Positions 41,280 to 46,156 of a stretch of 64,000 nt of DNA are shown here, piece after piece (positions within the stretch are counted from its first letter, which is position 1; the number at the start of each line of letters is the position of its first letter). This DNA comes from Mariniblastus sp. (GTDB taxonomy: Bacteria > Planctomycetota > Planctomycetia > Pirellulales > Pirellulaceae). Made by a program: the position numbers and the translations under genes. The notes below the pieces were generated by a model. The model did not search any database and was not told the origin of the DNA. It worked only from the letters and a program-made list of their open reading frames with translations. Where the stretch lies: contig WTFU01000102.1 of NCBI GenBank assembly GCA_011523945.1, forward strand, positions 1-64,000, in the 5' to 3' direction.

Positions 41280-42869
41280 GTGAAACGATCGTCAAGTTGG
41301 ATCGCCGTACTACCCTCGCTTGTAATCCCGATCTGCATCGGGCTTATGTTGTATTTGGGGCTATCCTATCTGATTAACGATGGGCATATCTCGAATGAGA
41401 CCGTCCTAAGATATTTGACGGGGCATCCGGTTTCTAAAGTAACCGTCGGGATGTTCTTTATTGGAATCGCCTCATTGGGGTTGATCGCTAACAATATTTT
41501 TGAGCAATTCAGCGGCGAAAAGAAAATCTCAATTAGTATTCCTCAAGGTGAGGTCGGGAGTGCTTCTGTAAGCTCGTCTTCCGGTTCTTCCGTAGGAAAG
41601 AGACCACGGGGAGTAATTGAAGAGCGAACAGTTGACTTGGGAAAGCATTTGCTGGAGTTGCCGAAATGGATGCATGACCATTACTTATGGCAGCGCTTAG
41701 TGAACGCGTTGCACTGTATTTACCGCACTAACTCTACTGCTTCTGTAGAAGATGAACTTAAGTATTTAGCAGACTTAGATCTCGATCGGCAGCAACAACG
41801 GTACTCCCTGGTGAGAATATTGATTTGGGCGACGCCGATGCTTGGTTTTCTGGGGACTGTTTTGGGAATTTCCCAGGCGCTCGGCGGAATCAATGTTGGC
41901 CCTGACAATGATTTTCAGCAAATGATGGATGGACTACGTGGTAGCCTTTACGTTGCGTTTGATACGACGGCTCTGGCTTTGACTTTATCCATGGTTTTAA
42001 TGTTTGGCCAGTTTTTAGTTGAGAGATTTGAGACCCAGTTGTTGGAGCTAGTGGATCAGCGGGCAAAACAGGAAATAAATGCCAACTTCGATATGACAGT
42101 GGCTCAAGCCCAGCCAATCTACGAAAATGTTGCCCACAAATTCCTAAATGCTTCTCAGAGGTCGATTGAAGAGCAAACTAGCCGCTGGCAAAAAACGATC
42201 CAGGCAGCCCATGCGACTTGGCTAGAGTCACAGGAAAACCTGAAGGATCGCCTGAATCAGCAATTGGTAGATTCCATTCAGCAAAGTGTTGAGACACTGA
42301 CCTTGGGTTTAACGAATTCAATCGACAAAGCGGATGAATCGATGTCGCACCGTTGGAGTCAGTGGCAGGTAACGCTTTCTGACAACGCCCGGTTGATGTC
42401 CGATTACCAAGGTAAACTGGCTCAGCAAGCTGAATTGATGGGCGAGTTGTTGGCTCAAGACCGAAACCAACAAAGTTTAGAGCCCATTCTTGCTCAAAAT
42501 CGAAGAGCCGCCGAAGCAACGGAGAAATTAAAGGATGCTGTTGAATCGATGGTAGTGAGTCTCGCTGAGAATCGCCAGGGAATGCTGGGACCAGGTGCAT
42601 CATCCGCCGATACCAGCGTTGAAAAACCACACTGCGAGTCAAAGTCTTCTAGTTCCGTGCTTGGAAAGGCGGAGATCAAGCGACAGATCGCCGAAATCAC
42701 CCAGTTCGGCATGGGAGCTCGGATCGATTTTGAAGAAACTCGACCTTCTCCCGAGCCGGTGTGTGCGAGTTCAGAGGCGACAACCGCAGAGGTCATTCTA
42801 CCTGTCCGTAAACAGGAACGTCAGTTTGTCACGGTTAACATTGACCGGAGTTCAAAAAGAACTGCATGA
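41280..42869 (+). CDS. MotA/TolQ/ExbB-like channel protein with long helical tail
   Basis: A 529-residue inner-membrane protein with a GTG start behind AAGGAAGCC. Two helices lie at about 10-30 and 55-75; the MotA/TolQ/ExbB core follows at about 175-265 with TPMLGFLGTVLGISQALGG and AFDTTALALTLSMVLM, where the Thr pair matches the channel-lining Thr of TolQ/ExbB. A long predicted helix or coiled coil runs from about 265 to 420, ending in a low-complexity tail. In this superfamily a pentamer of such subunits surrounds a dimer of TolR/ExbD/MotB subunits and uses ion flow for rotation or pulling. It overlaps the next gene by 4 bases. Confidence 0.82.
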   Translation: MKRSSSWIAVLPSLVIPICIGLMLYLGLSYLINDGHISNETVLRYLTGHPVSKVTVGMFFIGIASLGLIANNIFEQFSGEKKISISIPQGEVGSASVSSSSGSSVGKRPRGVIEERTVDLGKHLLELPKWMHDHYLWQRLVNALHCIYRTNSTASVEDELKYLADLDLDRQQQRYSLVRILIWATPMLGFLGTVLGISQALGGINVGPDNDFQQMMDGLRGSLYVAFDTTALALTLSMVLMFGQFLVERFETQLLELVDQRAKQEINANFDMTVAQAQPIYENVAHKFLNASQRSIEEQTSRWQKTIQAAHATWLESQENLKDRLNQQLVDSIQQSVETLTLGLTNSIDKADESMSHRWSQWQVTLSDNARLMSDYQGKLAQQAELMGELLAQDRNQQSLEPILAQNRRAAEATEKLKDAVESMVVSLAENRQGMLGPGASSADTSVEKPHCESKSSSSVLGKAEIKRQIAEITQFGMGARIDFEETRPSPEPVCASSEATTAEVILPVRKQERQFVTVNIDRSSKRTA

Positions 42870-44470
42870 GACGGCGAAAGAAAAATCGAACCCAACTCAG
42901 CGTTTCGTTGTTTCCGTTTTTAGCGGTGTTGATCTGCACTCTCGGTGTTTTAATTGTAATGCTCGTCATGGCAGTGAAATCTGCTGATGATCAATCTGCC
43001 AAGAAGCAAGCAGAGGACGATTCCGAGAAATTAGAGCAGATTGCGGAATTAAATGATGCCGTTTCCCTGGAGCAGATTCGCATCAAGGGGATGTCTTCGG
43101 TGCGTCCAGATGCTTTAGAGAAACTAAAACAGTCTCGTTCGCACCGAAGCTATCTCGAAGTGGAAGTTCGGAAGGCCAAACGGGAGCTTGAGAAAGTCAT
43201 TGCGGAGTGGAATCGCCTTCAGCGCGAGCCGGAACCAGTTTTATCTCTGGAGAAATTCTCAGAGATTGATGGAAAGCAGAAGCTGGCTAGATTGGAAGAT
43301 GAGATCCTTAAATTACGTTCTGAGATCGAGACGAAACGTGATAAGAACTCTGCGATCAAGCCAACGACTTACGTAATCGAGCCTTATCAGGGACGCGGTG
43401 GAACTTTCAGAAGGCCAATTTTCATCGAATGTTTAAAGGATGAGATCGTCTTGCAACCTTCCGGAATTCGGTTACGCAAAGACGAATTTGTTTTGCCGCT
43501 TCAGCCCGGCAATATGCTCGATTCAGCGTTGCTTGCCAATCGAGAATACTGGGAACGCTATGATCTGGTTGGTAAAGAAGGAAATCCTTATCCATTGGTG
43601 ATTGTTCGGCCGGAGGGGGCAGAAACGTTTGTATTGGTTCGTCGGGCAATGCAAAGTTGGGATGATGAGTTTGGATATGAGCTGGTCGATGCTGGAAAGG
43701 TTTTGAGTTTCGGAAAAAAAGACCCTCAGCTGATTGAAGAAGTAAACAACGCGATCGAAGAGGCGAGGATTCGGCAGCAGTCACAGATCGCGTTGATTGA
43801 GTCTCACCGTGCCCGGGAAGCCATGTTTTCGGACGAGCGTTCTCGCCCGGGACTCCGTGTGTCTGGAGGACAGGGTGGATTTGTCTCGACAGCAAGGGGA
43901 TTAGGAGATGGATTGGAAGGATCCGATGTGCGTGGGGCTAGAAAACAATCTGATTCAAAAAATCCGACGGATCTTCTTTCGAAAAGGAATTCAAAACAGG
44001 GTGAGTTGGAGGCCGAGCGGACGAGTTCGAGGGATAGATTGAGTTCTTTGACGGGCGCTGCTCGTTCCCAATCGAAAGCTGGAGCTGGAGGAGAGGTCGC
44101 AGGTGACATCCTTCAGTCTACATTGAGTATTGCCAATCAGCGCGGTATTAACTGGGCATTGCCGGCGAGAACAATGGGGGCCACCGGGTACGTTCGCCCT
44201 CTTCGGCTGTATTGTGGAGCCGACTACCTTGAGCTTAAATCTGGTGGTGTTAATGGCAAACGAATCATAATGGTCGGGGACACTGCAGATGCGATTGATC
44301 CACTAGTGGAGCAGATCTGGGGGCAAATAAAATCATGGGGGGTTGCCGGTAAAAATGGTTATTGGAAACCACAGCTTCGCGTGACGGTATTACCTGGTGG
44401 AGAGATTCGATTTTCGGAATTAAATGGGCTGCTGTACAACAGTGGTCTTTTGATTGAGGAGTCGCGCTAA
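42866..44470 (+). CDS. TolR/ExbD-like protein 1, membrane Asp replaced by Ala
   Basis: A 534-residue bitopic protein: basic start, one helix (LFPFLAVLICTLGVLIVMLVM, about 15-36), a coiled coil (about 45-165), a beta-rich domain (about 170-300), a charged low-complexity stretch (about 310-430) and a final globular part. The helix aligns with TolR/ExbD as PFLAVL against PLLDVL: Pro17 is kept, but the proton-carrying Asp is Ala20. No OmpA-like peptidoglycan-binding domain is recognised. Its ATG overlaps the channel gene by 4 bases, and its stop overlaps the next start, so the three are translationally coupled. Confidence 0.75.
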   Translation: MRRRKKNRTQLSVSLFPFLAVLICTLGVLIVMLVMAVKSADDQSAKKQAEDDSEKLEQIAELNDAVSLEQIRIKGMSSVRPDALEKLKQSRSHRSYLEVEVRKAKRELEKVIAEWNRLQREPEPVLSLEKFSEIDGKQKLARLEDEILKLRSEIETKRDKNSAIKPTTYVIEPYQGRGGTFRRPIFIECLKDEIVLQPSGIRLRKDEFVLPLQPGNMLDSALLANREYWERYDLVGKEGNPYPLVIVRPEGAETFVLVRRAMQSWDDEFGYELVDAGKVLSFGKKDPQLIEEVNNAIEEARIRQQSQIALIESHRAREAMFSDERSRPGLRVSGGQGGFVSTARGLGDGLEGSDVRGARKQSDSKNPTDLLSKRNSKQGELEAERTSSRDRLSSLTGAARSQSKAGAGGEVAGDILQSTLSIANQRGINWALPARTMGATGYVRPLRLYCGADYLELKSGGVNGKRIIMVGDTADAIDPLVEQIWGQIKSWGVAGKNGYWKPQLRVTVLPGGEIRFSELNGLLYNSGLLIEESR

Positions 44471-45516
44471 TGAGTCTCAAGCGAATTACGACCGGGCAAG
44501 ATTCTTTTTTGGATATTGTCGCGAACTTAGTTGGAATTCTTATCATTTTAGTGGTGGTTGTTGGCGCACAGGCGTCAGCATCTTGGGTTCATTCTACTCC
44601 CAATGAAGATCTTTCAGCTGAAATTGAAAATCTCAAAGCAACTCAAGCGAGTTTAGGTGAGACAGTCAAAAAAATTCAGTTGGATAACGAGGCATTGGGG
44701 GAACAGCAGGCAAAGGAGAACAGGTTAGCTGCAGCTTTAGCCGACGAACGACATGAGGCTCTGATTCGGCTCGAGTTACTTCAGCAAAAGCTAGATGCGG
44801 TCAAAAAAAATCGGATAGAAAAAATAGCGGAAATTGATGCAGCGGCGGCCATTGAGTTTGAAAAGAAAGAAGCTTTTGAAACTCAGCAGCAGAAATTAAT
44901 GGACGAGTTAGCGGAGCTGGATCGAGAGTCGAAAGCTATTTCTTTTAGCAATGAGCCGGTGACCGAGGTTATCAAGCACTTTCCCAATCCGATTGCCAAA
45001 ACGGTTTTTTCAGATGAAATTCATTTTTGTTTAAACAACGGTCGTCTTTCCTATGTTCCGATGAGTGAGTTGATATCACTCATGAAGTCTGAGTGGAAGC
45101 TGAATGCGGAAAAGTTGAGTCGAGCCGAACAGACGATCGAAGTGGTGGGGCCAGTAAACGATTACCGAATGCAATATGAATTGGTCGTGAAGACAAATTA
45201 CGACCGAATGGGAGGTGGCATGAATGCCCAAAAAACAGTTAGTTTTCAGGGGTTTAGGATGCTTCCCACGAGTCCGCTTATCGGAGAAACCATTGAGGTG
45301 GCTCTTCGGGAGAATTCAGATTTTCAGAAGAGGCTGTCTGGTTTCGAACCCGGGAAAACAACAATTTCGATATGGGTCTATCCGAATGATTTTGAGTCGC
45401 ACGGAGTACTCAAGAATTGGATCTACGAGAATGGTTTTCAAATGGCGAGTTGGCCTCTTGGTCACGGTAAGAGGATCTCGGGTGGCCCCTCCGGTTTCAA
45501 AACCTCCGCACAGTGA
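44470..45516 (+). CDS. TolR/ExbD-like protein 2 with conserved membrane Asp
   Basis: A 348-residue bitopic protein. The N-terminal helix (DSFLDIVANLVGILIILVVVV, about 11-32) carries Asp15 at the TolR/ExbD/MotB position (FLDIV against LLDVL). A coiled coil (about 45-155) and a C-terminal alpha/beta domain (about 165-345) follow, with EIHFCLNNGRLSYVPM resembling IFIECLKDEIVLQPSG of the preceding protein, so the two downstream proteins look like diverged paralogues. The start overlaps the preceding stop by one base (TAATG). The likely role is the stator partner of the channel protein at 41280. Confidence 0.78.
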   Translation: MSLKRITTGQDSFLDIVANLVGILIILVVVVGAQASASWVHSTPNEDLSAEIENLKATQASLGETVKKIQLDNEALGEQQAKENRLAAALADERHEALIRLELLQQKLDAVKKNRIEKIAEIDAAAAIEFEKKEAFETQQQKLMDELAELDRESKAISFSNEPVTEVIKHFPNPIAKTVFSDEIHFCLNNGRLSYVPMSELISLMKSEWKLNAEKLSRAEQTIEVVGPVNDYRMQYELVVKTNYDRMGGGMNAQKTVSFQGFRMLPTSPLIGETIEVALRENSDFQKRLSGFEPGKTTISIWVYPNDFESHGVLKNWIYENGFQMASWPLGHGKRISGGPSGFKTSAQ

Positions 45517-45697: not shown

Positions 45698-46156
45698 ATG
45701 GCGCGAAAAAATCCTCGGCGTAATATTGCGAGAATTGAAGTGCCCGGAGAGGGCCGGAAGATTTATGGAGGCTGGGTAGTTCGTATTCAACGGCGAGGCG
45801 AGCGTTTTTCCAAGTACTTTTCAGATCTTAGTCACGGTGGGAAACGGTTGGCATTGCAGGCCGCAAAATTGTTTCGCGACGAAATTGACCAAAGCCATAA
45901 ACGTTATTCGGTGAAGGATTTGTCGGCCAAGCCTTCGGTTCGAAATCGCTCTGGCCAGGTCGGGCTTCGCCTTCACGAGCAAACCGACCGCCGCGGTGAG
46001 TTCGATTATTCTTATTGGTATTGGATTGCGCAGTGGACCGATGGGCACGGTCGGCGACGGACTCGTTCTTTTTCAATTCATAAGCATGGAGAAGAAGAGG
46101 CCTACCGCCTTGCCTTTGAGGCCCGGAATCAAGGGATTAAACAGGCGAAGCGTTGA
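45698..46156 (+). CDS. Tandem AP2-like DNA-binding protein
   Basis: A basic 152-residue protein made of two AP2/ERF-like three-strand-plus-helix units: residues about 22-65 (GGWVVRIQRRGERFSKYFSD, then AAKLFRDEI) and about 105-150 (YWYWIAQWTDGHGRRRTRSFSIHKHGEEEAYRLAFEARNQ). In bacteria AP2 domains usually occur attached to homing HNH endonucleases or phage integrases; no nuclease motif is present here. It could be a DNA-binding regulator or a remnant of such an element. It lies 181 bases after the stator-like trio on the same strand, without clear coupling. Confidence 0.7.
   Translation: MARKNPRRNIARIEVPGEGRKIYGGWVVRIQRRGERFSKYFSDLSHGGKRLALQAAKLFRDEIDQSHKRYSVKDLSAKPSVRNRSGQVGLRLHEQTDRRGEFDYSYWYWIAQWTDGHGRRRTRSFSIHKHGEEEAYRLAFEARNQGIKQAKR

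Follow-up and report, generated by a model that had tools for sequence, protein, structure and literature searches.

The operon and its three products

The window, which is the whole stretch of 64,000 nucleotides of Mariniblastus sp. DNA that was analysed, contains a tight operon of three genes in the order M, S2 and S3, all on the plus strand, as read from its open reading frames. M and S2 overlap by 4 bases (ATGA), and S2 and S3 overlap by 1 base (TAATG). The reading frames and both overlaps had been described in an initial annotation of the window, and their positions are as given there. The features of the operon are listed below, where M' is an alternative ring protein found in some genomes of the same order.

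41280..42869, plus strand: M, a ring protein of the MotA/TolQ/ExbB type with a long C-terminal tail; 529 residues, GTG start (PF01618, conserved motifs)
41856..41867, plus strand: M Thr193, the pore threonine of TM3, to Gly196, which is His in M' (alignment conservation)
41961..41969, plus strand: M Asp228, which is Asn in M', and Thr229-Thr230, with the pore threonine of TM4 (alignment conservation)
42866..44470, plus strand: S2, a single N-terminal helix, a coiled coil and two tandem, related beta domains; 534 residues (AlphaFold2, hhalign, conservation)
42923..42925, plus strand: codon gcg of S2 Ala20, at the position of the ExbD/TolR Asp (conservation; acidic in 19 of 21 M' genomes)
44470..45516, plus strand: S3, a single N-terminal helix (DSFLDIVANLVGILIIL), a coiled coil and a beta domain; 348 residues (AlphaFold2, conservation)
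44500..44526, plus strand: S3 Asp11, Asp15 (the putative proton site) and Asn19, at a spacing of four (no variation among the 80 loci with letters)

M is a member of the ring protein family, scoring 41 bits against Pfam PF01618, the cut-off of which is 22.9 bits. Elsewhere, one M' scores 34.9 bits and a decayed copy in locus L416 scores 16.3 bits, below the cut-off. The motifs G189-x2-G192-T193 and A226-F227-D228-T229-T230 are conserved, and the pore threonines of native M are found in 85 of 87 rows (T193) and 86 of 87 rows (T230). PF01618 loci number eight in the genome of the window; the trio is one of them and a more distant, paralogous trio is another. T193 and T230 align with the GT and TT threonines of six other ring proteins of this genome, and in these six the position of Asp228 is hydrophobic. 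Asp228 lies two residues before the pore threonine, and its side chain may not point into the pore. In the tail of M, Gln299 and Trp303 (window 42174-42188) are nearly invariant (70 of 73 and 71 of 73 rows) and are a possible docking point.

The two small subunits reach no family cut-off in Pfam and NCBIfam. Neither of them matches PF02472 (ExbD/TolR) at E values up to 1, and the OmpA-like peptidoglycan domain is absent from their Pfam matches. The helix motif of S2 is SLFPFLAVLxCTxG. The initial annotation had placed Ala20 in S2 and Asp15 in S3; the codons read gcg and gat (44512-44514 for the latter), and the pattern is conserved and not due to chance.

The structures of S2 and S3 were modelled as monomers with AlphaFold2. 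The S3 model (me5aadd41f9ef, pLDDT 83.9) has helices at residues 10-35 and 46-158 followed by a beta domain at 182-329, and the S2 model (m244e06664ad8, pLDDT 74.8) has helices at 17-120 and 133-162 and beta domains at about 183-281 and about 440-533. The stalk made of these parts is predicted to be periplasmic. The two domains of S2 are related to each other (hhalign probability 82.5, E 1e-5), and no relation of the S3 beta domain to either of them is detectable by the same method. The N-terminal parts of S2 and S3 match with a probability of 95.4 and an E of 2e-8 when the coiled coil is included, and with a probability of 74 when the helices are compared alone, so that the kinship is perhaps owed partly to the coiled coil. 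Comparison of S2 and S3 with ExbD of the same genome gave E values of 0.02-0.3, that is, no detectable ExbD kinship. A fold search of the PDB with both models returned nothing at an E of 0.001 or below, for which the long coiled coils may be the reason, and mutual information between S2 and S3 over 181 rows gave no clear axle register.

Conservation of the helix asymmetry

The trio was sought in the order, in the class and in a sample of the phylum, as the initial annotation had proposed. S3 is present in all 99 same-order genomes searched, the window's own included, a few of the matches being fragments. It is present in 94 of 118 genomes of the class, where the match in G175 is weak and paralogue-like, and in 13 of 149 genomes of the phylum sample, of which 7 are within the class and the other 6 are weak.

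In a set of 81 loci, which comprises the window and two paralogous trios among others, Asp11, Asp15 and Asn19 of S3 are each found in every one of the 80 loci with letters, there being one gap. Position 20 of S2, read in 80 rows, is Ala in 69, Asp in 6, Ser in 3 and a gap in 2; two of the three Ser belong to a paralogous trio. The Asp is thus found in 6 of 78 rows with letters, and all six of these go with M'. Cys24 of S2 is present in 78 of 78 rows with letters. The 80 closest named records, Mariniblastus and other Pirellulaceae among them, overlap this set and are not independent of it. Asp15 of S3 is found in all 77 that are readable (3 are unreadable), and position 20 of S2 is Ala in 65 and Thr in 4 of the 69 readable ones; in the remaining 11, S2 is cut, absent or missed by the pattern, and one of these, L294, reads Ala. 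Among the 67 named records with a readable M, Gly196 is found in 67 and Asp228 in 66, while S2 has Ala in 62, Thr in 4 and is unreadable in one.

The 27 rows from the class outside the order have Ala (22), Thr (3) or Ser (2) at position 20 of S2 and Asp in S3. The asymmetry of S2 and S3 is conserved across the order and across the families of the class that keep the motor. Of the trios outside the class, L234 and L235, read by eye, have Asp in both small subunits, and L232 and L233, which resemble the paralogous trio, have Ser in the S2 helix and Asp in that of S3. The paralogous trio itself shows this combination in all 8 of its rows; its representative in the window's own genome, where it is the second trio, is at L039:8125-11483 (G000:C36). 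Two ExbB loci of the same genome with two different ExbD genes each (L032 and L034) have Asp in both, and Ala in S2 is therefore not a genome-wide habit. The idea put forward at the outset, that of two unequal TolR-like subunits only one of which has the membrane Asp, holds as far as it concerns a conserved trio, related and unequal helices and an Asp in one of them.

Exchange and loss of the ring

At the exception loci of the order, six with Asp and one (L103) with Ser in S2, M is missing, divergent or 595 bases off. An M-type gene was nevertheless found in each of the seven genomes. In the six S2-Asp genomes it differs from native M by A184V, G196H, I197F, D228N, A231T, L236A and S237A, and the ring gene of L103 has the first five of these changes. 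With the M-type gene from the exception genomes as the query, 396 same-order genomes yielded 19 matches of at least 366 bits and two more at 229 and 190 bits, with the next at 165 bits, and hence 21 M' genomes. His196, Phe197 and Asn228 are present in 21 of 21 M', and Gly196, Ile197 and Asp228 in 85, 84 and 85, respectively, of 87 native rows. M' forms one clade (100 SH-aLRT).

In 11 of the 21 genomes the M' gene lies no more than about 3 kb from S2, and in the other 10 it is on a different contig; in G576 it lies directly 5' of S2. G523 combines an unlinked M' with a native M that is still intact and part of the operon. An intact native M was not found in the other 20 M' genomes, which are drafts 68-99% complete, so that its absence is not certain. 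A native-type M still precedes S2 in seven of these 20 genomes, of which six belong to genus g295 and the seventh is G366. Thr193 and Thr230 are lost from all seven of these genes, three of which retain a TT slightly further on, and Asp228 is kept in one (G484). Three native-type M genes of this kind, which precede S2 in genomes with M' and have lost the pore threonines and kept the tail, are at L416:8303-9835, L417:5045-6580 and L418:5435-6460. That the Asp of S2 reflects a mere unlinking of M from the operon was considered and dropped, because the pore alignment points to a shared, different ring and M' adjoins S2 in G576.

Position 20 of S2 is acidic in 19 of the 21 M' genomes. It is Asp in 18 (G061, G077, G078, G089, G093, G094, G347, G348, G354, G356, G366, G430, G437, G441, G445, G484, G492 and G576), Glu in G349, Ser in G096 and Ala in G523, the genome that has retained the intact native M. 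Asp15 of S3 is found in 20 of the 20 M' genomes read, G354 being the one outside the count. In rows with the native ring, an acid at position 20 of S2 occurs in 0 of 89, the residue being Ala in 84, Thr in 3 and Ser in 2; L082 and L220, for which the fetched sequence contains no local M, are counted as native here. The acid of S2 usually reappears where the native ring is replaced by M'. The near kin G363 (native ring) and G354 (M') have the S2 helices QMFPFLAVLICTMGALVV and QMFPFLDALICTMGALLV, respectively, with few differences between them. That the acidity of S2 tracks the identity of the ring indicates that position 20 of S2 answers to the pore of the ring. The proposal in the initial annotation that both helices share one channel gains support from this covariation.

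For the S2 phylogeny, the 116-row tree was made after 25 loci had been removed by hand as near-duplicates, as cut or as poor matches. The 75 native rows of the 96-row tree set all have Ala in S2; they include 8 hand-chosen class rows outside the order, all with Ala, and five class rows with Thr or Ser are absent from them and present among the 89. In the S2 tree computed without the helix columns, the M' state requires 7 changes, at least 3 of which are forced by starred branches. A single clade of the M'-bearing S2 is rejected (p-AU 6e-54, with 43 of the 96 rows and a simpler model). In family f14, the remainder of the S2 helix is like that of its native kin. In a sign test on independent pairs, the differing pairs all change in the same direction, and there are 7 pairs over all branches. 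On the well-supported branches the test is not significant (median p 0.25 with 3 pairs and 0.125 with 4 pairs), because the starred branches provide only 3-4 pairs.

In family f21 (L204-L217; 14 loci fetched, 12 rows in the tree), S2 and S3 are still adjacent and are recognisable by their periplasmic parts. The N-terminal helices of both have neither the motifs nor an acid, and native M is not adjacent to the pair. When 16 f21 genomes were searched with a profile, only partial MotA-type matches emerged, the best at 72-101 bits, intact M scoring at least 292 bits in that search. This pattern means that both helix motifs are lost together with the ring and that the S2-S3 pair can outlast both. 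L329, L331 and L348 of this family have another MotA-type gene, which is followed by a protein with the helix GSGEDSFVAVVVTKLTGALLFILLL, where an Asp occupies the -4 place and an Ala the usual proton place.

Trios with an acid in both small subunits (from 19 genomes of the order, plus two trios from beyond the class) and pairs with an acid in neither (f21), which the initial annotation had held to speak against a shared channel with one site, do occur. Within the order each goes with a changed or a lost ring, and they therefore refine the idea and do not break it.

A putative motor with an unequal axle

The features observed directly, namely the conservation, the asymmetry of the helices, the exchange of the ring with the change in S2 and the joint loss, can be combined in one model. 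Probably, M, S2 and S3 make up one ion-driven motor of the ExbBD/TolQR/MotAB kind, in which S2 and S3 form an unequal axle in one ring. M would form the ring, a pentamer by analogy, and the N-terminal helices of S2 and S3 would stand together inside it at a ratio of 1:1, so that the complex would have a stoichiometry of 5:1:1. The coiled coils and the periplasmic beta domains would form an unequal stalk, turning with the axle. With the native ring, Asp15 of S3 would be the only axle residue to carry a proton past T193 and T230; S2 has retained a small residue at the corresponding position, and M itself has the additional Asp228. With the exchange of the native ring for M' and its His196 and Asn228, S2 has nearly always regained an acid at position 20. 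Structures of the classical motors have their two Asp in unequal states, and in the trio this division would be written into the genes. A task of this motor at the cell envelope is likely, since the stalk is predicted to be periplasmic.

A more specific form of the model is offered tentatively, as a possibility that falls short of an even chance. The 5:1:1 motor would have one site on its axle and pass about five ions per turn, not ten; the second carboxylate would have moved from the axle to Asp228 of the ring, and the acid would return to S2 with M'. If this is true, nature has switched repeatedly between one-site and two-site motors.

The ring might instead serve two kinds of homodimer, M5-S3(2) being the motor and M5-S2(2) an idle, regulatory or plugging complex that gains its Asp with M'. 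The axles of ExbD, TolR and MotB are dimers of a single subunit (excerpts of PMC12905483 and PMC9389320), and this arrangement demands of the S2 and S3 genes merely that each use the same ring. It is unlikely nonetheless, since translational coupling links S2 and S3 in the window and the pair persists even in f21, which has lost native M, and a dead S2 homodimer would hardly remain core through a whole order. Rather unlikely, too, is a purely structural acid in the S2 of M' genomes, which would pair with His196 of the ring as a contact site and carry no protons. His196, Asn228 and the S2 acid do co-occur, and Gly196 with Ala20 would be the uncharged version of the same contact in the native ring; the acid sits, however, at the place of the ExbD/TolR Asp, and the Glu of one genome retains the carboxyl group at a different length. 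Against the shared axle itself stand the one M' genome with Ser in S2 (G096), the non-significant sign test, the unclear axle register, the lack of detectable ExbD/TolR kinship in the S2 and S3 sequences, the possible orientation of Asp228 away from the pore and the incompleteness of many drafts.

The link between M' and the S2 acid could also reflect the inheritance of a single transferred M'-S2 block and not repeated adaptation. M' is one clade, the helix of S2 is short and in about half of the M' genomes the two genes are no further than about 3 kb apart, but the helix-free S2 tree scatters the M' rows, one clade is rejected, the S2 helix of f14 is otherwise native-like and M' and S2 are on different contigs in the remaining genomes, which makes such a block very improbable. 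The long tail of M had led the initial annotation to liken it to ZorA, and weak matches to ZorA (E 0.005 and 0.006) agree with a defence or Zorya-like system. This lead was not borne out: the best ZorA match is 13.7 bits with the E of 0.005, ZorB is absent among the matches of S2 and S3 at E values up to 1, and S3 has no match in phage or plasmid records. PADLOC gave no defence-family match at an E of 0.01 in 8 flanking proteins, in keeping with the earlier remark that no ZorC/D/E-like gene is nearby, and none at an E of 1 in the downstream AP2-domain protein. With the trio kept across the order and each flanking family confined to at most 26 of 81 loci, a role in defence is scarcely credible.

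The trio shares with ExbBD and TolQR a PF01618 ring with GT and TT pore threonines, single-helix partners encoded beside the ring gene and a partner Asp at the start of the helix. It differs in having two unlike axle-type partners, one of them acid-less, the extra Asp228 of the ring, and partners with long coiled coils and no ExbD domain detectable in their sequences. The equivalent residues are Asp25, Thr148 and Thr181 in ExbBD and Asp23, Thr145 and Thr178 in TolQR, and the two axle Asp of these motors occupy unequal places (excerpts of PMC12905483 and PMC12965293). MotAB and PomAB likewise combine a ring with a single-helix Asp partner, whereas the trio has two unlike partners and no match to an OmpA-like peptidoglycan domain.

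One ring gene with two different TolR-type genes is also the arrangement of AglRQS of Myxococcus xanthus. Both AglQ and AglS reportedly have the conserved Asp, and their assembly into homodimers or heterodimers is described as not yet settled (excerpt of PMC9389320); both match PF02472 (excerpt of PMC3169522). Here S2 is acid-less and neither subunit matches PF02472. An Asp in both is thus not found in the window, where S2 has Ala20, and within the order acids in both were found in M' genomes only. A system of paired, unlike TolR-type genes in the PVC lineage shares the lineage and the unlike pair with the trio (excerpt of PMC12204202); the trio differs in that inspection by eye showed no TPR or vWA family near it repeatedly, and no acid-less partner is described in that excerpt.

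ZorA of Zorya is a ring protein with a long tail. ZorAB resembles the trio in its long-tailed ring protein and in weak profile matches, and differs in that these are marginal and no other defence-family match is nearby. No description of the trio was found in searches of the open-licence papers of PubMed Central, and the main text of a study of gene essentiality in Planctopirus limnophila contains none of the terms TolQ, ExbD, ExbB, biopolymer, MotA and TonB (PMC10632474).

In ring-and-axle models, the number of ions per turn is the product of the ring and axle subunits, ten for 5:2, and five would require an entirely new model (excerpt of PMC9389320). A widely kept motor with a one-acid axle, which has near relatives with two acids, would make the question of ions per turn testable in living cells, and ring and axle residues that change together in nature point to the residue pairs that set the proton path.

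The flanks of the 81 loci were clustered, and the commonest of the flanking families, none of which exceeds the 26 loci given above, is GatB, on the opposite strand. A neighbouring partner gene was rejected as the load of the motor on these grounds. Inspection of the trio's recurrent neighbours by eye revealed neither a force-transducer gene nor a TPR or vWA family. The AP2-domain protein (PF00847) is encoded downstream on the same strand (window 45698-46156), and 21 of the 81 loci have a member of its family close to the trio.
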